Origin: Hyphomicrobiales bacterium
GTDB taxonomy: Bacteria; Pseudomonadota; Alphaproteobacteria; Rhizobiales; TMED25
Assembly: GCA_029245795.1 (NCBI GenBank)
Contig: JAQWOP010000014.1
Span: forward strand, 68,062 to 116,511
Direction: 5' to 3'
Length of the DNA: 48,450 nt
A model generated the notes under the pieces. The model did no database searches and was not told the origin of the DNA. It saw only the letters and a list, made by a program, of their open reading frames with translations. This document shows positions 24,337 to 37,023 of this stretch, piece after piece; the first letter of the stretch is position 1; each line of letters starts with the position of its first letter. A program made the translations under genes and the position numbers.

Positions 24337-25176
24337 ATGCCAATAATAAAGAAATTTTCAGATATAAATTTTTTAAATATTAAGAGTGGGATTAAATGCA
24401 AAAAGATATTAAGCGCAGAAAATCTAAATGATAATAGAATTATCATAGATTATTATGAAATGTCTCCAAAATCTTCGCTAGATTTTAATAATAATGAAAA
24501 TGATATAACTTGGATACAATCACTATCTGGAAAAATAGATACTTACTTCCCAAATACATATATTCCTGGCAGAAGGGTTGACGAAGGTAAAATTATTTTT
24601 ATCAAAGGATCTCAAAATATTAATCTGGATTCTCCTAAAGGGTCAACTTTCATCATAACTCGGATACCCAATTATAAAGTCCACGAAGATCATGTAGATA
24701 ATAAATTTGAGAGTGATCTGAGATTTATAAATTGGGGGAATGAGCCTATCTTAAAATCTGAGCATGACGATCGAAAAAGAGTCTATCTTATATCAGAAAC
24801 ATTAGCTGGAACTAATAGCGTTAAGGGTGAATTAATTAGATATCCTATTTCCACTTCTTGCCCAGAACATTTCCATGTCGGAGGAGAACATTATCAATTT
24901 ATAACTAGTGGTAATGTAATGGCGGTCCTAGATGGTGCCGAGTTTGAGTTAAATAAATTTGACCTACTTTACAATTTTGAGAACGAAAAACACTGGTTCT
25001 ATACAAAAGATAGTGCATGTGATTTTGTGGAATTTTTTGTACCAGGTGAAGCAAAAACAATTTGGACACAGACAACTAATATATGCACTTGGTCGCCTCT
25101 TGGAGTAGATATAAATGGAAAATCTCCAGCCAGAAATATTGCAAAACATGTTCATGGTGAAGGAAAAAATATTTAA
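24337..25176 (+). CDS. Bicupin domain protein of unknown function
   Basis: A 279-residue two-cupin protein. The first cupin (about residues 20-115) lacks obvious metal ligands. The second (about 150-240) has H178-x-H180, E184 and H219 in PEHFHVGGEHYQF and EKHWFY, a complete cupin metal site. Quercetinase- or gentisate-type dioxygenases share this design, but I cannot name a substrate. It is transcribed alone, with a divergent neighbour upstream and a 304-nt gap before the aminotransferase. It could supply a dioxygenase or isomerase step to the catabolic genes that follow, but this is speculation. Confidence 0.7.
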   Translation: MPIIKKFSDINFLNIKSGIKCKKILSAENLNDNRIIIDYYEMSPKSSLDFNNNENDITWIQSLSGKIDTYFPNTYIPGRRVDEGKIIFIKGSQNINLDSPKGSTFIITRIPNYKVHEDHVDNKFESDLRFINWGNEPILKSEHDDRKRVYLISETLAGTNSVKGELIRYPISTSCPEHFHVGGEHYQFITSGNVMAVLDGAEFELNKFDLLYNFENEKHWFYTKDSACDFVEFFVPGEAKTIWTQTTNICTWSPLGVDINGKSPARNIAKHVHGEGKNI

Positions 25177-25480
25177 AAGAAGTGATCCTTCTGAAAATTG
25201 TATTCGTTATAATGTTGTGTGAGTAATTGATATATATAGTGTATAAATCTCAACTCAATTAAGCTATTAAATCAACATATCCCTAATAATCCCTAAAGTT
25301 GATTAATCACTACTCACACTAAATAACTAAAAGTCTTTATTTTTATTTTCTAATGCAATTTTATCAAAAATATTCATATATTTAACTTTTATAAATGTAT
25401 TATCTTCTTATTGAATATTAATAATAGTCATACTAGTATATAAAATTCACATACATTAAAATATTAAATTATTATTAGCC
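25177..25480. other. 304-nt intergenic region with nested inverted repeats
   Basis: The longest non-coding stretch in the window, without a recognisable gene or RNA family. It contains an outer inverted repeat GTGTGAGTA (25217-25225) / TACTCACAC (25311-25319), an inner repeat AATCAAC (25270-25276) / GTTGATT (25298-25304), and a short direct repeat ATCCCTAA at about 25279-25286 and 25289-25296 within the inner loop. The right half (25320-25480) is plain AT-rich DNA that probably carries the aminotransferase promoter. A weak AGAAG/CTTCT hairpin lies right after the bicupin stop (about 25179-25193). Confidence 0.5.
25217..25319. repeat. Nested inverted repeat in the bicupin-aminotransferase gap
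   Basis: The outer arms are 9 nt perfect complements 85 nt apart; the inner arms are 7 nt perfect complements with a 21-nt loop. Together they could fold into a long imperfect stem-loop or mark two operator half-sites. The arms include mixed-sequence GTGTGAGTA, less likely to pair by chance than pure A/T runs. No transposase or integrase is nearby. Confidence 0.5.
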
Positions 25481-26848
25481 ATGAATAACGAATCATACGA
25501 AAAATTAGACAGAAAAAATTTTATTCATCCTTTAACTCACCTTGGAAAATTTGAGAGGGGAGAGATCCCTAATAGAATAATGGAATCTGCATCGGGAGTT
25601 CGTATAAAAGATTCGACTGGTAAAGAATATATTGATGCATTTGCAGGGCTTTACTGTGTAAATGTGGGCTATGGTAGGAAAGAAATAATAGATGCAATCA
25701 AAAAACAAGCATCGCAACTAGCCTACTATCATTCATATTATGGAAATGCAACTGAAGCATCTATAAAATTATCTGATATGATAATTGATCGATCTCCCAA
25801 TAATATGAAAAAGATTTACTTTGGTCTTACAGGTTCGGATGCTAATGAGACAAATATCAAATTACTCTGGCATTATAATAATTTGATAGGAAAGAGTAAG
25901 AAGAAGAAAATTATTTCAAGAATAGGTGGTTATCATGGTGCCGGCATATTGACTGGCAGTTTAACTGGGATGAAAAATTATCATAAAAATTTTGATCTTC
26001 CAATAAGTGGAATTATCCATACAGAGGCTGCACACTATTTTCACCGAAATAATCTTGATCAAACTGAAAATGACTTTTCTCAAATGTGCGGTGAAAAGTT
26101 AGAGGAGATGATAATCAATGAAAATCCTGATACAATTGCAGGATTTATAGCTGAGCCAGTAATGGGAAATGGTGGACTTGTCCCCCCTCCAAAAAACTAT
26201 TGGTCCATAATTTCAAAAATACTTAAAAAATACGATATTGCCTTTATTGCGGATGAGGTAATAACCGCTTTTGGTAGATTAGGAAAAATGTTTGGAGTTG
26301 AATACTATGATATTGAAGCCGATATGATAACAATAGCAAAAGGTGTCACATCAGCTTATAGCCCTCTTTCTGGCTCAATAATATCAGATAAAATCTCACA
26401 AGTTATAATAGATGGTACAGATCAATATGGTGCATTAAACCATGGTAGTACCTATTCTGCCCATCCAATATCTTGTGCTGCAGCCGTTGCTAATCTCAAT
26501 TTAATTGATAATAAGAATTTGATTGATAGCGGTCATTTAATTGCTAATTATTTCAATAACAAGCTTATTGAAAAACTATCTGATCATCATCTTATTGGGG
26601 ATATAAGATCGGCTGGATTATTGTCTGCATTAGAGTTTGTTAAAGACAAAAAAGATAGAAAGTTTTTTGATAAACAAGGTCAATTCGCACAAGAATTAGC
26701 TTCTATAATGGCAAAAAATGGAATTTTGGCACGGGCAATGCCATCCGGGGATACACTTGGATTTGCACCTGCACTATGCTTAACTGAAAAAGATGCTGAC
26801 ATAATTATTGAAAAGACAATCCTTAGCATTAAAGAAATCACTAATTAA
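25481..26848 (+). CDS. Class III (omega) aminotransferase, PLP-dependent
   Basis: A fold-type I aminotransferase of 455 residues. The PLP lysine is K287 in ITIAKGVTSAY, the pyridine-N Asp is D258 in FIADEVITAFGR, and the phosphate-binding GLTGSDANE and the YHGAG motif (residues 151-155) are present. Such enzymes move amino groups from omega-amino acids, taurine, beta-alanine or polyamines to pyruvate, giving a semialdehyde. It has its own promoter region upstream and overlaps the convergent CoA-transferase gene by 8 nt. It faces, rather than joins, the CoA operon, so a shared pathway is only a suggestion. Confidence 0.92.
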   Translation: MNNESYEKLDRKNFIHPLTHLGKFERGEIPNRIMESASGVRIKDSTGKEYIDAFAGLYCVNVGYGRKEIIDAIKKQASQLAYYHSYYGNATEASIKLSDMIIDRSPNNMKKIYFGLTGSDANETNIKLLWHYNNLIGKSKKKKIISRIGGYHGAGILTGSLTGMKNYHKNFDLPISGIIHTEAAHYFHRNNLDQTENDFSQMCGEKLEEMIINENPDTIAGFIAEPVMGNGGLVPPPKNYWSIISKILKKYDIAFIADEVITAFGRLGKMFGVEYYDIEADMITIAKGVTSAYSPLSGSIISDKISQVIIDGTDQYGALNHGSTYSAHPISCAAAVANLNLIDNKNLIDSGHLIANYFNNKLIEKLSDHHLIGDIRSAGLLSALEFVKDKKDRKFFDKQGQFAQELASIMAKNGILARAMPSGDTLGFAPALCLTEKDADIIIEKTILSIKEITN

Positions 26849-27581
26849 TTGCGTCCAAAGATGAAATAATATCCTGGTTAATTATAATCGGCTCTGATGC
26901 TGGCGGCTTAAGATTCCAAGGCAACCCTTCAATAGCATCCTCGTAAGAAAAATCTTTTAATATACTATGTAAATACCATCCATCTACACTCATTTTAAAT
27001 TTTGCTCTATCTGTTATGAGTAAAGATGGACCTCTACCCAATTTATATTTACTTCTTAGTTTATCTAGTTCTAAACCAGATCCGGGGCTTGTAACAAAAT
27101 CTACCTTATCAACAAATCTTCTCGGTTCATGAGGCATTAAGGTAAATAAGTTTGGAATCAAACAAGCAATGTCATGGGCTCCACCTGATCCTACCATTCT
27201 AACTTTTGGATTATCATAAGAACCAATTACGGTTGAATTTAAATTCCCGTATTTATCAATCTGAGCCGCAGAGAGAAGTCCCACTTCAATTCTTCCAGCC
27301 TGTAATTCTGAAAATACAGATAAACTATCTGTAATCATCTCAGCTCCATGAGCTATAGAGGGACTACCTGTGGAATATGATTTTGTATGCGGAAATGCAC
27401 CGATGGCGCCTGATTCATAAATTAAATTGAGATTCTTTTCTACAGTAATCTTTGCTAGACAAGCAGCATCTGATGGAATACCAATTCCAACAAAACAAGA
27501 TCTATACCCCACAAGCTCACTTGCTGCAATCATTGCTATACGTTTGTTTATTGTAATATCTTTGTAATTATTTTGAGTCAT
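26841..27581 (-). CDS. Class I CoA transferase, beta subunit (glutaconate CoA-transferase B-like)
   Basis: The catalytic subunit of a two-subunit CoA transferase, 246 residues. The YESGAIGA motif carries the Glu (E56) expected to form the gamma-glutamyl-CoA intermediate of class I transferases, and GSGGAHDIA and LLSAAQIDKYGNLNS are further family blocks. It resembles the GctB/IpdB branch. The presence of the E-S-G Glu argues for true CoA transfer, rather than the hydrolase-type IpdAB reaction (family knowledge). ATG 27581 overlaps the alpha-subunit stop as ATGA. It is the last gene of the five-gene operon, and its 3' end overlaps the convergent aminotransferase. Confidence 0.88.
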   Translation of the reverse strand: MTQNNYKDITINKRIAMIAASELVGYRSCFVGIGIPSDAACLAKITVEKNLNLIYESGAIGAFPHTKSYSTGSPSIAHGAEMITDSLSVFSELQAGRIEVGLLSAAQIDKYGNLNSTVIGSYDNPKVRMVGSGGAHDIACLIPNLFTLMPHEPRRFVDKVDFVTSPGSGLELDKLRSKYKLGRGPSLLITDRAKFKMSVDGWYLHSILKDFSYEDAIEGLPWNLKPPASEPIIINQDIISSLDAIN

Positions 27582-28462
27582 TTTTTACCACACTGACCTT
27601 TCTCAAGACTATTGCATCTTTCTTTTCCGATCATTTCTTGATACTCCTTAAGAGTTTTTGATGAATGAACCCATTCATCAAGATAGTCTAATAGCTTTTC
27701 TTCATCTCTTGAGATCTGATCATATTCCATATAATGATCATCATCTCTAGAATAATAACCTGATACATAAGATGGATATGCTCCCCATGGCAACTCAATT
27801 ACGCTTGTAACTCTATGAGCTGGTATAACTGTCATCTCAGGGTGTTCTTTTAGCTTTTCATTGTTAATAATTTTTTCAACACTAACAATTATCTTATCAG
27901 AAGCTAGAGCACCTTCAATGGTATCACCATCAATACCCCACATTTGAATATTTCCATATTTATCTGCATGCTGAGCATGGATCAGTGCAACATCAGGTTT
28001 TAGCGATGGTATGGCGGAATATAAATCACCTGTATAAGGACAAATAGTGGATTTCAAATAATTAATATTAGATGGTTTATCTCCAATCTGTAGAATTTTC
28101 GAGGGTAAATAGCTAACCCCCATTCTAGCGGCATGAAGTCTGAGTATCATAGATTGATTTGTCCACTCCTCAACTTCAATTATATCTGACTTATAAGCTC
28201 TATTAAATGAGTGTGATAATCCAACTGATGGATTCCCAATATAACCAAATATTACTTTTTTAATTATCTTTGACGCAATCAATTGATCAAACAAAATATC
28301 AGCACCCGATCTACAAATTGTAAGATCAGCTTTATTTTGTCTAATTAATTCATGAGTTAAGTAGAAAGGAATTAAATGACCAAATCCACCAATAAAGATT
28401 GTGTCATTATCGTTTATATTTTTCTTTATTGCCTCGGTTATATTTGAAATTTTTTCAATCAT
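27578..28462 (-). CDS. Class I CoA transferase, alpha subunit (glutaconate CoA-transferase A-like)
   Basis: The CoA-binding partner of the preceding beta subunit, 294 residues. The glycine-rich FIGGFGHLIPFYLTHELIRQ near residue 25 is the CoA-transferase A signature, and DVALIHAQHADKYGNIQMWG is the second conserved block. The C-terminus is extended and charged relative to short alpha subunits. It is 13 nt downstream of the CaiB gene and translationally coupled to the beta subunit (4 nt overlap). Substrate inferred only as a short or medium carboxylic acid. Confidence 0.87.
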   Translation of the reverse strand: MIEKISNITEAIKKNINDNDTIFIGGFGHLIPFYLTHELIRQNKADLTICRSGADILFDQLIASKIIKKVIFGYIGNPSVGLSHSFNRAYKSDIIEVEEWTNQSMILRLHAARMGVSYLPSKILQIGDKPSNINYLKSTICPYTGDLYSAIPSLKPDVALIHAQHADKYGNIQMWGIDGDTIEGALASDKIIVSVEKIINNEKLKEHPEMTVIPAHRVTSVIELPWGAYPSYVSGYYSRDDDHYMEYDQISRDEEKLLDYLDEWVHSSKTLKEYQEMIGKERCNSLEKGQCGKK

Positions 28463-28475
28463 AAAATAGATTTAT

Positions 28476-29675
28476 TTAAATTATTTCCTTTGATCTAAGC
28501 TCTTTAATTTTCTCCGCATCATATCCAAGCGACTCTAGGATTTCATTATTGTCTTCACCCAAAAGAGGTGGAGCTTTTTTGATTTGAGCAGGTGTATTTG
28601 AAAATCTATATGGAACGCCTAGCATCTTTAATTTTCCTGCCTGAGAATGCTCTATCTCAACTACCATATCATTCGCTATAGTCTGCTCATCCGATAATGC
28701 ACTTTCAACAGAATTGACTGCACTTGCTGGAATATTAGATTTCAATAGTTGTTCTAACCATTCTTTTACAGTTTTTGTTTCAATAACATTTTGAATTTCT
28801 TTATCAATTGCATCCCTATTTATCACTCGATCCGCATTTTTTATAAATCTATTATCCGTTGACCATTCTTTTTTATCTAAACATACGGAAAATTTCTCAA
28901 ATTGTACATCATTCCCGACAGCAATAGCAATACTCCCATCTATTGCTTCAAAAGTTCTGTATGGAACAATATTTGGATGACCATTACCGAATCTCCTTGC
29001 TGGTTTTCCACTCACAAGATGATTTGCAGCAACATTCACAAGCATAGATATGCTAGTTGCATATAAGCTTGTCTCAACTCTCTGACCTTCACCACTAGTA
29101 TTTCTTGAATTTAAAGCACCTAATATTGCTATAGTTGCATTCATACCCGTACATACATCCACCAATGCTACCCCGACTTTTATTGGATCTCCATTTTCCT
29201 CGCCAGTAATGCTCATCAAGCCGCTCTCAGCCTGAAGCAGGAAATCATATCCAGGTCTTTCCCCCCGAGGGCCTTTCCCTCCATATCCGGTTATTTGGCA
29301 ATGAATTAATTGTGGTGCTTCTTTTTTTCTCCATTCATCGGTAATACCAAATTTATCTAAAGTTCCAAATTTAAAGTTCTCAATCAAAACATCTGATTCT
29401 TTTAACAATTTTTTTAATATTTCTATACCATGATCTGATTTTAGATTTAAGGTTACACTTTTCTTATTTCTATTTATACCAAGAAAATAGGCTGCTTCGC
29501 TTCCAGCGAATGGCGGCCCCCAAGATCTAGTATCATCTCCCTTCCCAGGCTGTTCAATTTTAATAATCTCAGCCCCCATGTCACCGAGGTTCATTGTACA
29601 AAATGGACCTGCCAAAATTCTACTTAAATCGAGAACTCTGACACCACTTAAAGGACCTTTTTGTTCAAATTTCAT
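28476..29675 (-). CDS. CaiB/BaiF (class III) CoA transferase
   Basis: A 399-residue family III CoA transferase. LSGVRVLDLSRILAGPFCTMNLGDMGAEIIKIE is the classic N-terminus, and GNRKS-like INRNKKSVTLNLK and LIENFKFGTLDKFG follow. D144 in PGYDFLLQAESG is the candidate catalytic Asp (by motif). Relatives move CoA between oxalate, carnitine, bile acids or aryl acids, via aspartyl-CoA anhydrides. It lies 21 nt after the crotonase gene. Two unrelated CoA transferases in one operon suggest that an acid substrate is activated and an acid product is later recycled. Confidence 0.92.
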   Translation of the reverse strand: MKFEQKGPLSGVRVLDLSRILAGPFCTMNLGDMGAEIIKIEQPGKGDDTRSWGPPFAGSEAAYFLGINRNKKSVTLNLKSDHGIEILKKLLKESDVLIENFKFGTLDKFGITDEWRKKEAPQLIHCQITGYGGKGPRGERPGYDFLLQAESGLMSITGEENGDPIKVGVALVDVCTGMNATIAILGALNSRNTSGEGQRVETSLYATSISMLVNVAANHLVSGKPARRFGNGHPNIVPYRTFEAIDGSIAIAVGNDVQFEKFSVCLDKKEWSTDNRFIKNADRVINRDAIDKEIQNVIETKTVKEWLEQLLKSNIPASAVNSVESALSDEQTIANDMVVEIEHSQAGKLKMLGVPYRFSNTPAQIKKAPPLLGEDNNEILESLGYDAEKIKELRSKEII

Positions 29676-29696
29676 TAATTTGCTTTCTTTCTATTG

Positions 29697-30560
29697 TCAT
29701 GATTTTTCATTTTCATCATTTTCAAGACCATCCAAGTAAGACTCAACGTTATTTTTTCTTTTTTCACGAAATTGCTGGAAATCTGGTTTTCTTTTTTCAA
29801 GAAAAGCATTCATTCCTTCCATAGACTCTTCCGAACCCCAAACATGAGCCAATAATTCCATACCATGTTGCCAACTTGCATATAGTGTATCTGAATCATG
29901 ATTAAGTGATTTCTTTGTCTGTCTTATTGTCTGTCCACTTCTCTCTATAAGACCCTCACACCACTTTTGAGTTTCTTCTTCCAATTTACCTTTTGGTACA
30001 ACTTTGTTTATTAACCCAATAGTTACCGCTTCCTGCGCTGTAAATCTTCTTGCCATGAATATCATTTCTTTTGCTAACCTTGAGCCAATTAATTGTGGTA
30101 AATACTGGGTTGCGCCTACAGTAGGGCAAGCACCAACAACAGCTCCACTTTGACCAAATACTGCATCATCTGCGGCTATTACCAAATCACACCAAAGAGC
30201 TAATTCGTGACCACCACCCATGCAATATCCATGAACTGACGCCACAACTGGAATTGGAATACCTCGTATTGCCATTGCAAGCGCTAACATCCTATCATTC
30301 CAATGAGCTGCATTTTCCCAATCTAACCTCATCATAGCATGAAAATCTCCTCCCGCTGAAAAGGCTTTATCACCAACTCCATTAATTACAACACATACAA
30401 TAGATGGATCATTCCTAGTAGAGAGAACCGCATGCGTTAACTCATCAAGTGTTTGTTCCCTAAAAGCATTTCTAACATCCGGTCTATTAATAGATACCCA
30501 TGCAACCTTATTTTTAATTTCAAATAAAACTTCTTTATAATCTCCACCTGCTTTTGTCAT
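29697..30560 (-). CDS. Crotonase-fold enzyme, BadI/MenB-like (enoyl-CoA hydratase family)
   Basis: A crotonase of 287 residues. The oxyanion-hole blocks are GDKAFSAGGDFHAM and HGYCMGGGHELALWCDL. The segment FGQSGAVVGACPTVGATQ, then RRFTAQEAVTIGLINKVVP and a C-terminal EESMEGMNAFLEKRKPDF resemble 2-ketocyclohexanecarboxyl-CoA hydrolase (BadI) and DHNA-CoA synthase (MenB) more than ordinary enoyl-CoA hydratase, as judged by eye. That branch makes or breaks carbon-carbon bonds of beta-ketoacyl-CoAs in ring systems. GAGG precedes ATG 30560. Plain hydratase activity is the alternative. Confidence 0.85.
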   Translation of the reverse strand: MTKAGGDYKEVLFEIKNKVAWVSINRPDVRNAFREQTLDELTHAVLSTRNDPSIVCVVINGVGDKAFSAGGDFHAMMRLDWENAAHWNDRMLALAMAIRGIPIPVVASVHGYCMGGGHELALWCDLVIAADDAVFGQSGAVVGACPTVGATQYLPQLIGSRLAKEMIFMARRFTAQEAVTIGLINKVVPKGKLEEETQKWCEGLIERSGQTIRQTKKSLNHDSDTLYASWQHGMELLAHVWGSEESMEGMNAFLEKRKPDFQQFREKRKNNVESYLDGLENDENEKS

Positions 30561-30610
30561 GATACGCCTCTATTTATGTTATTTGTAAATGTTCTTGCCG
30601 AAAACTATCA

Positions 30611-31045
30611 TTATTTTTCGTGCTCTTCAACCTCAATTAATGCCCCACAAATCTGATTTGGATGAATAAAATATAAATTTCTCCCGTGATAACCTGAAAA
30701 TGGCTCTGATAAAATATTAATTCCATTATTTTTCTGTATCTTATAGAACTCATTTACATCCTCTACAGATAAACAGTAATGATGCAAGCCACCTTTTGGA
30801 TTCTTATGAAGAAATTTTGCAATAGGCGATTTATCGTCTAACGGTTCCATTAGCTCAATTTTTATATTACCAATTGATATGAGAGCCATCTTTATCTTTT
30901 GTTTCTCTATGACTCTTACTTCAGATGCAATGGTACCAAAAGTTTTTTGATATTGGATAATTGCCTCTTCAATATTTGGAACTGCATGAGCGATATGATC
31001 AAAAATTAGGTTCCCTAAATTATTTGAAGTGTCTTTTTTATTCAT
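30611..31045 (-). CDS. Methylmalonyl-CoA epimerase-like VOC family protein
   Basis: A vicinal-oxygen-chelate metalloenzyme of 144 residues built of two beta-alpha-beta-beta-beta modules. The metal ligands of methylmalonyl-CoA epimerase are seen as H17 (FDHIAHAVPN), a Glu in KIELMEPL, H88 (GLHHYCL) and E138 (CGALIEVE). The order of blocks fits MCE better than glyoxalase or ring-cleaving dioxygenase. It is the first gene of the five-gene CoA operon (50 nt before the crotonase) with AGGAG before ATG 31045. An epimerase for a 2-branched acyl-CoA intermediate is the natural reading; no mutase is in the window. Confidence 0.85.
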   Translation of the reverse strand: MNKKDTSNNLGNLIFDHIAHAVPNIEEAIIQYQKTFGTIASEVRVIEKQKIKMALISIGNIKIELMEPLDDKSPIAKFLHKNPKGGLHHYCLSVEDVNEFYKIQKNNGINILSEPFSGYHGRNLYFIHPNQICGALIEVEEHEK

Positions 31046-31190
31046 TTTATTCTCCTAAAGTTTTATTTTCATGCACAATTTTTGTTTTATTTTATATATG
31101 TACAAAAATAAATCTATGTATTATCAAAAATATTTTATATGGTACTTGTTATAGTTAATCAAAAATATTTATATATCACGAGGAAATTCG
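31046..31190. promoter_or_regulatory. Divergent promoter region with 13-nt direct repeats
   Basis: The 145-nt gap separates the CoA operon (minus) from the SMP-30/M24 pair (plus) and should hold both promoters. ATCAAAAATATTT occurs exactly twice on the plus strand, at 31123-31135 and 31158-31170, 35 nt apart start to start, both followed by a TAT-rich run. The second copy lies about 20 nt before the SMP-30 start, near where a promoter or operator would be. No regulator gene is adjacent. Confidence 0.45.
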
Positions 31191-32111
31191 ATGTTAAATC
31201 CATTTAAACAACCAGAACTAATAAAAGCTGAAATATTTACTGAACTGCCTGAAAAATTTAGAGAAACAAAACAAACAGCTTGGTCTAATCCAAACAGACA
31301 AGGAGCGAAAGTAAATCAATTCCTTGAAGGACCTTCGTTTGATAGAAGTGGAAATTTATATGTAACAGATATCCCTTTTGGTAGAGTTTTTAAAATAACT
31401 CCTGATGGAGAATGGAATATAGTTTGTGAATATGATGGATGGCCAAATGGTCTAAAATTTCATAAAGACGGATCTGCTTATATTGCTTGTTATAAACAAG
31501 GTTTAATGAAATTAGATATTAATTCTGGAAAAATAGAACCCATAATAGGTTCAATGTATTCTGAAGGTTTTAAAGGTTTAAATGATCTACATTTTACATC
31601 CAATGGAGACTTATATTTTACCGATCAAGGGCAAACAGGTATAATTGATCCAACTGGTAGAGTCTTTAGATTAACAAAAAATGGTGAATTACATAAACTT
31701 GTAACAAACGCCCCAAGCCCAAACGGTATAACTGTTAATAATTCAGAAAATCAAGTATATGTTGCCATTACAAGATCTCAACAAATATGGCGTCTTCCAC
31801 TAATGGCGGATAATAGCGTTAGTAAAAGTGGTGTGGCTATCCAATTATCTGGAGGTCATGCAGGACCTGATGGACTTGAAATGGATTCCGAAGATGGTAT
31901 GATTGTAAATCATCTAGGAGTTGGCGTATGGAGATTTGATAATAATTGCCTTCCAACGCATTTAATTTATACTGATAATCATAGTTTAATGACTAATACA
32001 GCTTTTGGTGGTCCAGATAGAAAAACATTATATATTACTGACTCTATGAACGGTAGAATTATGAGAGCTAAACTTCCTGTTGCTGGAAAGCTATTATATG
32101 GTCTTTCGTAA
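31191..32111 (+). CDS. SMP-30/gluconolactonase family protein
   Basis: A six-bladed beta-propeller lactonase-like protein of 306 residues, cytoplasmic (no signal peptide). The divalent-metal ligands expected for SMP-30 are present: E46 in FLEGPSF, N131 in GLNDLHF, N178 in PSPNGITV and D227 in GPDGLEMD. Family members open sugar or other lactones. GAGGA lies upstream of ATG 31191. It is the first gene of a pair with the M24 protein (23 nt apart) and is divergent from the CoA operon. The substrate is unknown. Confidence 0.9.
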   Translation: MLNPFKQPELIKAEIFTELPEKFRETKQTAWSNPNRQGAKVNQFLEGPSFDRSGNLYVTDIPFGRVFKITPDGEWNIVCEYDGWPNGLKFHKDGSAYIACYKQGLMKLDINSGKIEPIIGSMYSEGFKGLNDLHFTSNGDLYFTDQGQTGIIDPTGRVFRLTKNGELHKLVTNAPSPNGITVNNSENQVYVAITRSQQIWRLPLMADNSVSKSGVAIQLSGGHAGPDGLEMDSEDGMIVNHLGVGVWRFDNNCLPTHLIYTDNHSLMTNTAFGGPDRKTLYITDSMNGRIMRAKLPVAGKLLYGLS

Positions 32112-32134
32112 TATTAAATCAAGAAGGCAATAAC

Positions 32135-33328
32135 ATGATTAATGGTTACTTTATTCAAAATTTAGATGATAAAAGTAAGGAAATTTTAAATACTAAATAT
32201 CCACTCTTTTCTGAAAATGAATATAAAAGAAGAATTGCTTTACTTGAAGATATTTTAAATCAAAAAAAATTAGATAAGATTATAATATATGAGGCTATAG
32301 GTTCTGGGAGTGCCATGCAGTATTTTACAGGTTGGCACACCACTCAAGAGGCCCTTGCTGAAATTAATTCTGGTGAGAAAATAAATCTCTATGTTGAGCA
32401 TTATAATCATTTACCAATGGCAGAGACACTTATTAATGAGAGTACGAATCTTTATTGGGGGGAGAGAATGTTATCACAAAAAATCTTTCCCAAAATGATT
32501 GATAGCCTTGGAAAAGATAGTACCATAGGCATTATTGGCAGACTCCCATATAGTTATATAAAGCAAATTCAAGAAAAGAATATCAAAGTAATTGATGTAT
32601 TTTCTGATTATAATTTGATGAGATCTATAAAAAGTGATGAAGAATTGTCTTGGTTAAAAATTGCAGCAGCATTAACAGATGAAGGTATTAGTAGCTTAAC
32701 TACCAACCTAAAGCCTGGGCTAAACGAGCACGAAATGTCTCAAATAACTCAGTCAGGATATCTCAAACATGGAGGACATAAGATAATCAATTTTTTTGGT
32801 ATTACAAATATGGATCATCCAGATAATTGTGTTCCATATCAATACACTTCAAACAAAACAATCACAAAAGATGATATTATAACTACAGAAATTAGTTCTC
32901 ATTTCTGGAATTATCCTGGACAGGTACTGAGAAGTATAGGTTTTAAAAAAATGAATACACTTTATTCTGAATTGCATGCTGTTGGAGATGAAGTGTTTAA
33001 AAGTATCTTTTCAATTTTAAAAGATGGGACATCTATTGATGAAATAAATGATATATCTTCAACAATTGAAGATGGAAGCTTCTCAATATGGGATGATCTA
33101 ATACATGGATATGGAGGAGGATATCTAGATCCTGTTATTGGCACTAAGAGCCGTCCTGCAAGTCATTATCCTGATTTTAAATTCAAAGAGAATATGACAG
33201 TTGTTATTCAGCCGAACATAATCACAAGGGATCATAAGGCTGGTATTCAGACAGGTGAATTAGTTCATATTCAGAAAAATAGAGCTGTTAGGCTCCATAA
33301 TTTTACCCAAGGTTACATACAAATATAA
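32135..33328 (+). CDS. Creatinase-like M24 family hydrolase with degenerate metal site
   Basis: A 397-residue pita-bread-fold protein: an N-terminal creatinase domain (about residues 1-155) and a C-terminal M24 domain. Active M24 peptidases use Asp, Asp, His, Glu, Glu to bind two metals. Here these positions read E252, Q263 (inferred alignment), H324 (DLIHGYGGGY), Q359 (VVIQPNI) and E375 (QTGELVHI). Loss of the acidic ligands with retained His and Glu is what is known for creatinase, a metal-free C-N hydrolase, so a small-molecule amidohydrolase is more likely than a proline peptidase. AAGG precedes ATG 32135. Confidence 0.8.
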   Translation: MINGYFIQNLDDKSKEILNTKYPLFSENEYKRRIALLEDILNQKKLDKIIIYEAIGSGSAMQYFTGWHTTQEALAEINSGEKINLYVEHYNHLPMAETLINESTNLYWGERMLSQKIFPKMIDSLGKDSTIGIIGRLPYSYIKQIQEKNIKVIDVFSDYNLMRSIKSDEELSWLKIAAALTDEGISSLTTNLKPGLNEHEMSQITQSGYLKHGGHKIINFFGITNMDHPDNCVPYQYTSNKTITKDDIITTEISSHFWNYPGQVLRSIGFKKMNTLYSELHAVGDEVFKSIFSILKDGTSIDEINDISSTIEDGSFSIWDDLIHGYGGGYLDPVIGTKSRPASHYPDFKFKENMTVVIQPNIITRDHKAGIQTGELVHIQKNRAVRLHNFTQGYIQI

Positions 33329-33341
33329 AATTCAGGCAAAA

Positions 33342-35798
<2,457 letters not shown>

Positions 35799-35850
35799 TT
35801 ATAATTTTCATTAGATAAAAAAAAACGTGATTCTGCAAGTTTTTAATAAG

Positions 35851-37023
35851 TTAGGGCTTTATCTGCGTTAGTTTTCCATTATTAATATCAAAAAAGTCTG
35901 CTTTAGATTGAATATAACAAAATAAATCACTTGTCGTACCTGTTAACCAAGTCTGAGAACCTAATTCAGAAATCTGATCAAAAAGATTACAAATTCTTTC
36001 CTGATCAAGATGGGCCGTAACTTCATCCAATAGTAATACTGGTGAAATCCCATTATTGTTTTCCTGATAAACCCTAGATTCTGCTAATATTAGTGATATA
36101 AGCAGATTTTTTTGTTCGCCTGTTGAACAATTTTCTGCATACATTTTATTTTTTTTATAAAAAAGAGTAAAATCTGTTCGGTGAGGTCCAATATTTGTTT
36201 TATAAGTAATTTTATCTTTCTTACGACTCCTATATAAAATTTTAATATAACTATCTTCCATTTCAGATATTGAAATATCTTTAGATAGAGTATCCAATTC
36301 TTCTCGCATAATAATTTTAGATGATGGAAATAGATTATTTTTAACATCAGCATCCATTATTTTATTTATTTGATTTACTGCTATTTGCCTTGATAGCAAT
36401 ATACTTATTGATATTTTTGCAAGTTGCTTTTCAAGATTATCTAACCATACACTTGATAAACTATCTAAATTATATAAGACCTTATTTCTCTGAGTGATAA
36501 TTCTTTCATAATTCTTAATGTTATCTGAATGAGTAGGTTCAATTAGAGAAATTAATTTATCAAAAAATTTTCGTCTATCACTTCTTGAGCCAATAAAAAG
36601 TCTATCCATCTGAGGTGTTAGCCAAATAATACCTATATTATTTCCAAATAATTTTGGACTTTTTATTGATTTACCATCTATTCTGCATTGTCTATTTTTG
36701 CCATTTGAAATTTCTAAATCACTAATACCAGTTCCTAATTTAGTCTTACCATGATGTGACTTTATTTCCATAAAAACTGACCAACCACCCTTACCATTTG
36801 TATTTGATTGATCTGATAATTGAGCCCCCCTCAACCCTCTTCCTGAAGTAAACATTGAAATCGCTTCGAGTATATTAGTCTTACCTGATCCATTCTCCCC
36901 AACAAGCGAGATGAATCTATTATTTGTGGTGATTGATGTGAAATCATGGTTTCTGAAATCTGTAAGATTTAATTTGATTATCTCAGAAAAATTAACTGAT
37001 TTTTTTTTATCTATTTCTATCAT
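35851..37023 (-). CDS. recF: DNA replication and repair protein RecF
   Basis: An SMC-like ATPase that loads RecA at gaps with RecO and RecR. Walker A is GENGSGKTNILEAI at about residue 43, the ABC signature region is STGEQKNLLISLILA, and Walker B is PVLLLDEVTAHLD. Length 390 residues. It sits 27 nt after grpE and 73 nt before gyrB, all on one strand. In most bacteria recF-gyrB follows dnaA-dnaN; here hrcA-grpE takes that place. Confidence 0.95.
   Translation of the reverse strand: MIEIDKKKSVNFSEIIKLNLTDFRNHDFTSITTNNRFISLVGENGSGKTNILEAISMFTSGRGLRGAQLSDQSNTNGKGGWSVFMEIKSHHGKTKLGTGISDLEISNGKNRQCRIDGKSIKSPKLFGNNIGIIWLTPQMDRLFIGSRSDRRKFFDKLISLIEPTHSDNIKNYERIITQRNKVLYNLDSLSSVWLDNLEKQLAKISISILLSRQIAVNQINKIMDADVKNNLFPSSKIIMREELDTLSKDISISEMEDSYIKILYRSRKKDKITYKTNIGPHRTDFTLFYKKNKMYAENCSTGEQKNLLISLILAESRVYQENNNGISPVLLLDEVTAHLDQERICNLFDQISELGSQTWLTGTTSDLFCYIQSKADFFDINNGKLTQIKP

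Follow-up and report, generated by a model that had tools for sequence, protein, structure and literature searches.

What does a compact run of genes for coenzyme A (CoA) chemistry do in an alphaproteobacterium of the OCS116 cluster, and on which acid does it act? The window (the whole stretch of DNA analyzed here, 48,450 nucleotides) belongs to this cluster and comes from a source genome of 1,357,382 bases in 24 contigs; the crotonase on which the question turns has counterparts with 97% identity in Rhizobiales bacterium TMED25 and with 93 to 94% identity in three OCS116 cluster records. A first-pass annotation of this DNA had described five tightly spaced minus-strand genes. All five were found where it had placed them, their protein families were confirmed, and they form the following operon, listed from its upstream end.

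30611-31045, minus strand: VOC-fold acyl-CoA epimerase, methylmalonyl-CoA epimerase-like (144 amino acids [aa]; TIGR03081)
29697-30560, minus strand: crotonase-fold enzyme beside BadI/MenB with a predicted one-Glu active site (E119) (287 aa; PF00378)
28476-29675, minus strand: class III CoA-transferase of the CaiB family, SUGCT-like (399 aa; PF02515)
27578-28462, minus strand: CtfA, class I CoA-transferase subunit A, glutaconate CoA-transferase-like (294 aa; PF01144)
26841-27581, minus strand: CtfB, class I CoA-transferase subunit B with Glu56 (246 aa; PF01144)

The VOC and crotonase genes are separated by 50 bp, the crotonase and CaiB genes by 21 bp, and the CaiB and CtfA genes by 13 bp, and CtfA and CtfB overlap by 4 bp. 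From this gene set, its conservation, and its active-site residues, we infer the class of substrate, the order of the steps, and the reaction of the crotonase: the operon would serve the CoA-dependent breakdown of an organic acid that probably arises when a lactone is opened, a reading that we hold tentatively and with slightly less than even confidence. Our searches of the open-access literature found no account of a pathway built from these genes, in line with the first-pass annotation, which had not recognized one. Relatives of the crotonase were collected by a scan of named-species genomes, which gave 190 confirmed matches; the locus counts given below refer to the best 80 of these 190, which include near-copies (11 loci of the OCS116 family, 88 to 97% identical, and many from SAR116). 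We refer to the operon and its counterparts at these loci as the cassette.

The crotonase had been proposed to lie closer to the ring-cleaving enzymes BadI (2-ketocyclohexanecarboxyl-CoA hydrolase) and MenB (DHNA-CoA synthase) than to simple hydratases, and the kinship was borne out by both profiles and tree. Among the NCBIfam models, it scored 235.7 bits with MenB model PRK07396 (cut-off, 380), 219.1 bits with MenB model TIGR01929 (cut-off, 342.7), and 219.1 bits with BadI model TIGR03210 (cut-off, 467.6). The best enoyl-CoA hydratase model gave 185.6 bits, and all hydratase models remained under their cut-offs. In a tree of 27 proteins, whose bootstrap had not settled, whose root is a drawing aid, and in which a long-branch warning that included E. 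coli MenB makes false joining possible, the cassette crotonases and BadI/MenB were set apart from four E. coli comparison crotonases with support of 100/99; the BadI and MenB rows also grouped at 100/99, and the cassette crotonases as a group reached only 77/72. A search with an AlphaFold2 model of the crotonase (predicted local distance difference test score, 82.1) returned MenB structures first by E value, with TM scores of 0.64 to 0.66 and root mean square deviations (rmsd) mostly of 16 to 18, and the best TM score among the matches listed belonged to the enoyl-CoA hydratase 3pea (0.78 to 0.79; rmsd, 2.6 to 2.7). MenB, the hydratases, and the cassette crotonase all share the crotonase fold, and the kinship to MenB/BadI is carried by sequence evidence and not by the structural model. 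None of menC, menD, and menE was found among the nine scanned proteins of 24337-33325, and no search was made beyond these.

The presumed catalytic residues of BadI and MenB have not been inherited along with this likeness. Cassette crotonases from 31 of the 80 loci were aligned, profile to profile, with nine rows consisting of E. coli MenB and eight BadI-type proteins chosen from 12 (four over the BadI cut-off and four short of it by about 1 to 10 bits). The alignment was gap-free from about residue 92, and identity over it was 42%. The Asp of the S-x-D motif and a Tyr near the C terminus, both invariant in the nine rows and both taken by us to be catalytic in BadI/MenB, are replaced by Pro146 and Trp241, respectively, and a Val on the oxyanion helix has become Glu119; each of these changes was present in 80/80 homologues when residues were counted over all loci. 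Gln137, Gly139, Thr147, and Glu235 were likewise unchanged in every homologue. If, as we assume, the positions correspond to the hydratase Glu numbering, E119 occupies the place of the first hydratase Glu and Gly139 that of the second. Glu is also found at the E119 position in E. coli PaaF and CaiD, and the E. coli decarboxylase ScpB likewise has only the first of the two hydratase Glu residues. In the alignment with these E. coli proteins, the rows of 7 of the 13 comparison loci (L016, L017, L019, L020, L027, L029, and L031) had been translated in a wrong frame and carry no weight in any statement made here. Judged by its residues, the crotonase thus appears to be neither a BadI/MenB enzyme nor a two-Glu hydratase. 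With the Asp and Tyr exchanged and a new Glu in place, ring hydrolysis cannot simply be ascribed to this enzyme. For this reason, and because a hydratase superposes on the model better than MenB even though MenB leads by E value, the "ring-cleaving" half of the earlier proposal was not supported in the form given.

The association of the crotonase with CaiB was strongly conserved. Among loci holding at least 1 kb downstream of the crotonase, a CaiB gene followed it on the same strand in 71/74, including 60 of the 63 outside the OCS116 family. Crotonases that were 38 to 43% identical served as a comparison set (42 loci with 1.5-kb flanks, some of them cut, and not all proven to be BadI), and any CaiB match was seen there in only 5/42 loci, or in 4/34 once eight places that had been fetched twice were removed. 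Since 60/63 loci stand against 5/42, the adjacency exceeds chance, and a downstream CaiB gene, which is the rule for the cassette crotonase, is a further difference from BadI/MenB. Three testable loci, L131, L139, and L145, had no CaiB gene in that position. At L131, from Histidinibacterium lentulum, a 421-aa reverse-strand frame lies at about 10.7 to 11.9 kb. The other members were less constant: a VOC gene was directly upstream of the crotonase in 35 of the 73 loci where the sequence reached far enough, and CtfAB was present in 22/80. The full order VOC-crotonase-CaiB-CtfA-CtfB also occurred in Ancylobacter sonchi (L114) and in two Rhodospirillaceae metagenome-assembled genomes (L141 and L144), so the neighborhood search that the first-pass annotation had proposed did find the arrangement in other bacteria.

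The crotonase was present in all 14 OCS116-family genomes searched, incomplete ones included, with at least 88% identity. Outside the OCS116 family, its distribution is patchy. In the same order, 1 of 47 genomes had it (a partial copy with 72% identity), and in an even draw across the class, 5/385 genomes, the source genome among them, carried a crotonase with at least 71% identity. Hosts of relatives outside OCS116 included SAR116, the single-cell genomes AAA536-G10 and AAA536-K22, Burkholderiales, Acidobacteria, Rokubacteria, and SAR324, together with A. sonchi, H. lentulum, and other alphaproteobacterial and betaproteobacterial metagenome-assembled genomes. A plasmid collection yielded two records at E values up to 1e-60, both less than 44% identical.

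Both CoA-transferases of the operon look active, because CtfB keeps its Glu and CaiB keeps the class III Asp. The CaiB protein matched PF02515 with 426 bits, and its nearest solved structure was the human succinate-hydroxymethylglutarate CoA-transferase (SUGCT) 9br6 (E value, 7.4e-103); it differs from SUGCT in scoring 366.3 bits with the NCBIfam succinate-glutarate model, compared with a cut-off of 750. Its D173 aligns with D169 of E. coli CaiB, and an Asp was present there in 73 of the 74 loci with a match, the remaining one lying outside the alignment. For both Ctf subunits the nearest solved structure was the glutaconate CoA-transferase of Acidaminococcus (1poi_A, E value of 6.5e-32, and 1poi_B, E value of 5.7e-25), from which the gene context differs; the matches to 6co6_A (entry name, probable CoA-transferase alpha subunit), which we take to be IpdA, and to 6co6_B had E values of 2.9e-15 and 1.6e-5. 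Glu56 of CtfB was kept in 22 of the 23 loci with a match, the remaining one again being outside the alignment. In the part of PMC5380842 consulted here, this Glu of class I transferases is described as forming the CoA adduct, IpdB has a Gly in its place, and IpdAB is a ring-opening hydrolase for which transferase activity was not detected. Because the catalytic Glu is kept, unlike in IpdAB, CtfAB should be a true transferase, and a steroid-type IpdAB/EchA20 module, which both subunits and the crotonase bring to mind, was rejected for CtfAB on the same residue. The remark of the first-pass annotation that this genome spends almost no DNA on accessory functions did not fit the 1.36-Mb source genome, which carries six class III CoA-transferase genes (contigs C1, C2, C9, C21, and C23); genes of this type are not rare there.

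The VOC protein exceeded the cut-off of the methylmalonyl-CoA epimerase model TIGR03081 (122.6 bits; cut-off, 114.95), and its nearest solved structure was the human methylmalonyl-CoA epimerase 3rmu. The metal-site residues E64, H88, H89, and E138 were kept in 44/44 loci with a match, and H17 was kept in 43/44, the remaining one lying outside the alignment. However, the partner mutase of this epimerase (methylmalonyl-CoA mutase, PF01642) was found in 0/9 OCS116 genomes, which were drafts with 53 to 98% completeness and represent 9 of the 14 in the family, and the methylmalonyl-CoA mutase route was rejected on this result. PF01642 was found in 4/5 other genomes of the same order. In each of the nine OCS116 genomes, the cassette VOC protein was the sole match over the epimerase cut-off. 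Because the only epimerase occurs with no mutase in 9/9 genomes, it probably serves an acyl-CoA other than that of the methylmalonyl-CoA pathway.

The genes flanking the operon in the window bear on the origin of the acid. Three of them are as follows.

31191-32111, plus strand: SMP-30/gluconolactonase-like lactonase, divergent from the operon (306 aa; PF08450)
32135-33328, plus strand: M24 creatinase-like protein, divergent from the operon (397 aa; PF00557)
25481-26848, plus strand: class III aminotransferase, facing the operon (NF005684, 685.9 bits; cut-off, 687)

The SMP-30 protein matched PF08450 with 123.7 bits, and E46, N131, N178, and D227, presumably its metal ligands, were kept in all 19 loci with a copy. 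These 19 of the 80 loci, where SMP-30 lies near the crotonase, comprise 11 from the OCS116 family (eight with 93 to 95% identity and three with 81%) and 8 from outside it (67 to 69%). Neighbor families in general were defined by single-linkage clustering over at most 10 kb of flanking sequence in each direction, which may merge unlike proteins, and were named from one or two representatives each. Other lactone-type families near the core were a chloromuconate-cycloisomerase-like MLE protein (38/80 loci), an amidohydrolase (12/80; a representative matched 4-sulfomuconolactone hydrolase with 196 bits, compared with a cut-off of 500), and a metallo-beta-lactamase-fold protein in L114. A lactone-derived acid is favored because several unrelated enzymes of lactone type adjoin the same core. 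In other lineages, tripartite and ABC uptake systems recurred near the cassette and GntR regulators were present in 13/80 loci, both of which fit with catabolism. A TauE-type exporter was found in 16/80. In the part of PMC5395668 consulted, expanded CaiB, luciferase-like monooxygenase, and SDR families of SAR202 are proposed to oxidize alicyclic compounds of dissolved organic matter via lactones; some neighbors of the cassette belong to the same families, an overlap at the level of families only. Two further observations concern these neighbors. Tandem MLE-family genes lie upstream of the crotonase in L100 and L111, a possible duplication within the pathway. In the SAR116 locus L117 (6419-8680), upstream of the TauE-type gene, an FGE-sulfatase domain is fused to a histidine-specific methyltransferase domain, which in our view resembles the fused EgtB-EgtD of ergothioneine synthesis.

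In the scheme that we prefer, SMP-30, or another hydrolase in other lineages, would open a lactone to a hydroxy or dicarboxylic acid, and CaiB would transfer CoA onto this acid from a donor such as succinyl-CoA. The VOC epimerase may then invert the acidic carbon next to the thioester, and the crotonase would use Glu119 for acid-base catalysis in some form of enolate chemistry (hydration, elimination, isomerization, decarboxylation, or C-C cleavage). Finally, CtfAB could recover CoA by passing it from the product, itself an acid, to a second acid, at no cost in ATP. The sequence of CoA transfer, epimerization, cleavage or hydration, and recycling suggested in the first-pass annotation agrees with the retained transferase residues and the conserved neighborhood, and ring cleavage is the part that did not carry over.

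The flanking genes had been suggested to supply or process the substrate, and this was not supported in the form given: SMP-30 and the M24 gene (13/80 loci) reach beyond the OCS116 family, but the aminotransferase was seen only within it. Two of the loci with the M24 gene are outside the family. In L141 and L144 it is, as in the window, divergent from the cassette, with 37 to 38% identity. In an alignment to the prolidase 1pv9, with metal-ligand positions as we assume them, the M24 protein appears to be without the prolidase metal ligands. Ectoine hydrolase was rejected for this gene at 35.4 bits (cut-off, 575). The dimethylsulfoniopropionate lyase DddP needs a metal, and it was weighed solely through the apparent loss of the ligands. 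The class III aminotransferase and a protein on its side of the operon with a sub-threshold cupin match were found in all 11 OCS116-family loci and in none of the others among the 80. The stop-codon ends of the aminotransferase and CtfB genes overlap by 8 bp (26841-26848). On the other side, the cassette adjoins two genes at 33342-37023 that we take to be gyrB and recF. The place of gyrB was kept in 10/11 OCS116-family loci, the remaining contig ending before it, and this neighbor suggests a position near the replication origin.

Several points weigh against the lactone-acid scheme. The members of the operon are known here as predicted proteins, from their genes alone. Their upstream partners vary by lineage, which leaves the lactone idea dependent on a mixed set of neighbors; MLE-family proteins may also be racemases or dehydratases, and the nearest solved structure of the MLE protein here, 2p88, is named by family alone. 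CtfAB and the upstream VOC gene, at the frequencies given above, are not obligatory or are located elsewhere, and the M24, aminotransferase, and cupin genes fit nowhere in the scheme. Additionally, genes of sugar-acid type are about as common near the core as those of lactone type, and because of this a pathway for sugar acids or polyol acids that ends in CoA chemistry, with the crotonase splitting or dehydrating a sugar-acid-derived acyl-CoA, is kept alive as an alternative that we consider unlikely. The neighbors behind it are an ILVD/EDD-family dehydratase (12/80 loci), GFO/IDH/MocA oxidoreductases in some other lineages, a malate/lactate-dehydrogenase-family protein (16/80; over the PRK10098 cut-off), a galactarate/arabinonate-dehydratase-like MR/MLE protein in L147 (222.8 bits; cut-off, 500), and an MFS protein weakly resembling D-galactonate transporters in another lineage. 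However, the OCS116-family loci showed none of them. We know of no sugar-acid route that uses CaiB together with a MenB-like crotonase, and a search of the open-access literature found none. This alternative and those below overlap with the preferred reading, and the confidence attached to each is not meant to add up to a whole.

A ring-cleaving module, in which CaiB activates an alicyclic keto-acid, the BadI/MenB-like crotonase hydrolyzes the ring, and CtfAB recycles CoA from the resulting dicarboxylate, seems quite improbable. It would agree with the place of the crotonase in the tree, with the rank of MenB by E value in the fold search, and with the luciferase-like monooxygenases (12/80 loci), SDR genes, and 3-hydroxyacyl-CoA-dehydrogenase-like protein (16/80) near some marine relatives. 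The set of EchA20 and IpdAB, as described in part of PMC5380842, offers a precedent, in that there, too, a crotonase related to MenB occurs together with a protein that resembles glutaconate CoA-transferase; EchA20 was compared by its description there, and IpdB differs from CtfB at the catalytic Glu. Ring cleavage is nevertheless opposed by the exchange of the Asp and Tyr for Pro and Trp and the gain of a Glu in all homologues, by the better superposition of an enoyl-CoA hydratase than of MenB on the model, by the Glu retained in CtfB, and by the dehydrogenase and monooxygenase families, neither of which turned up within 7.5 kb at any of the 11 OCS116-family loci.

Breakdown of a 2-substituted malonate is decidedly improbable. 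Here CaiB would activate the diacid, the VOC protein would epimerize it, the crotonase would decarboxylate it, and CtfAB would recover CoA, by analogy with E. coli ScpB (methylmalonyl-CoA decarboxylase) and ScpC (propionyl-CoA:succinate CoA-transferase), whose genes adjoin. The epimerase, over its family's cut-off and mutase-free in all nine genomes, would act in that family's own chemistry; CaiB is nearest to a dicarboxylate transferase, and ScpB shares the first-Glu-only pattern, so that in both systems a single-Glu crotonase-fold enzyme lies beside a CoA-transferase. However, the crotonase is only distantly related to ScpB and nearer in sequence to MenB/BadI, it has P146 in place of an aligned ScpB Tyr (to which we presume a role in ScpB), and the E. 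coli operon includes a mutase and a class I transferase only. No neighbor points to malonate, and the lactone-type neighbors would be left unexplained. A conventional short set for beta-oxidation or methylmalonyl-CoA metabolism (enoyl-CoA hydratase, methylmalonyl-CoA epimerase, and generic CoA-transferases) is highly improbable, since the VOC score, the Glu shared with PaaF and CaiD, and the superposition on 3pea that favor it are set against the missing mutase, the Gly at the second hydratase position in 80/80 homologues, the place of the crotonase outside the E. coli rows of the tree, and hydratase scores that were all under cut-off. Known pathways for itaconate, carnitine, benzylsuccinate, inositol, sulfoquinovose, and sulfocatechol were also considered, by comparison with general knowledge of them, and set aside.

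Returning to the lactone-acid scheme, a broader proposal, possible if on balance doubtful, is that the crotonase represents a third lineage alongside MenB and BadI, in which the active site for ring closing or ring opening has been rebuilt around the new Glu and catalyzes an undescribed acyl-CoA reaction. The pathway that it would head, likewise undescribed and widespread, would let soil bacteria and marine bacteria with streamlined genomes (OCS116, SAR116, and AAA536-G10) draw on dissolved organic matter for acids that are alicyclic or derived from lactones, and its epimerase would have been taken over from the methylmalonyl-CoA route. The replacement of the MenB/BadI Asp and Tyr, together with a Glu on the oxyanion helix, poses the question of which reaction follows, and the cassette offers a marker for following the pathway in ocean sequence data. 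Overall, a common substrate probably lies behind this gene set, given that the crotonase occurs in every OCS116-family genome searched and that SAR116 and soil bacteria share the cassette.

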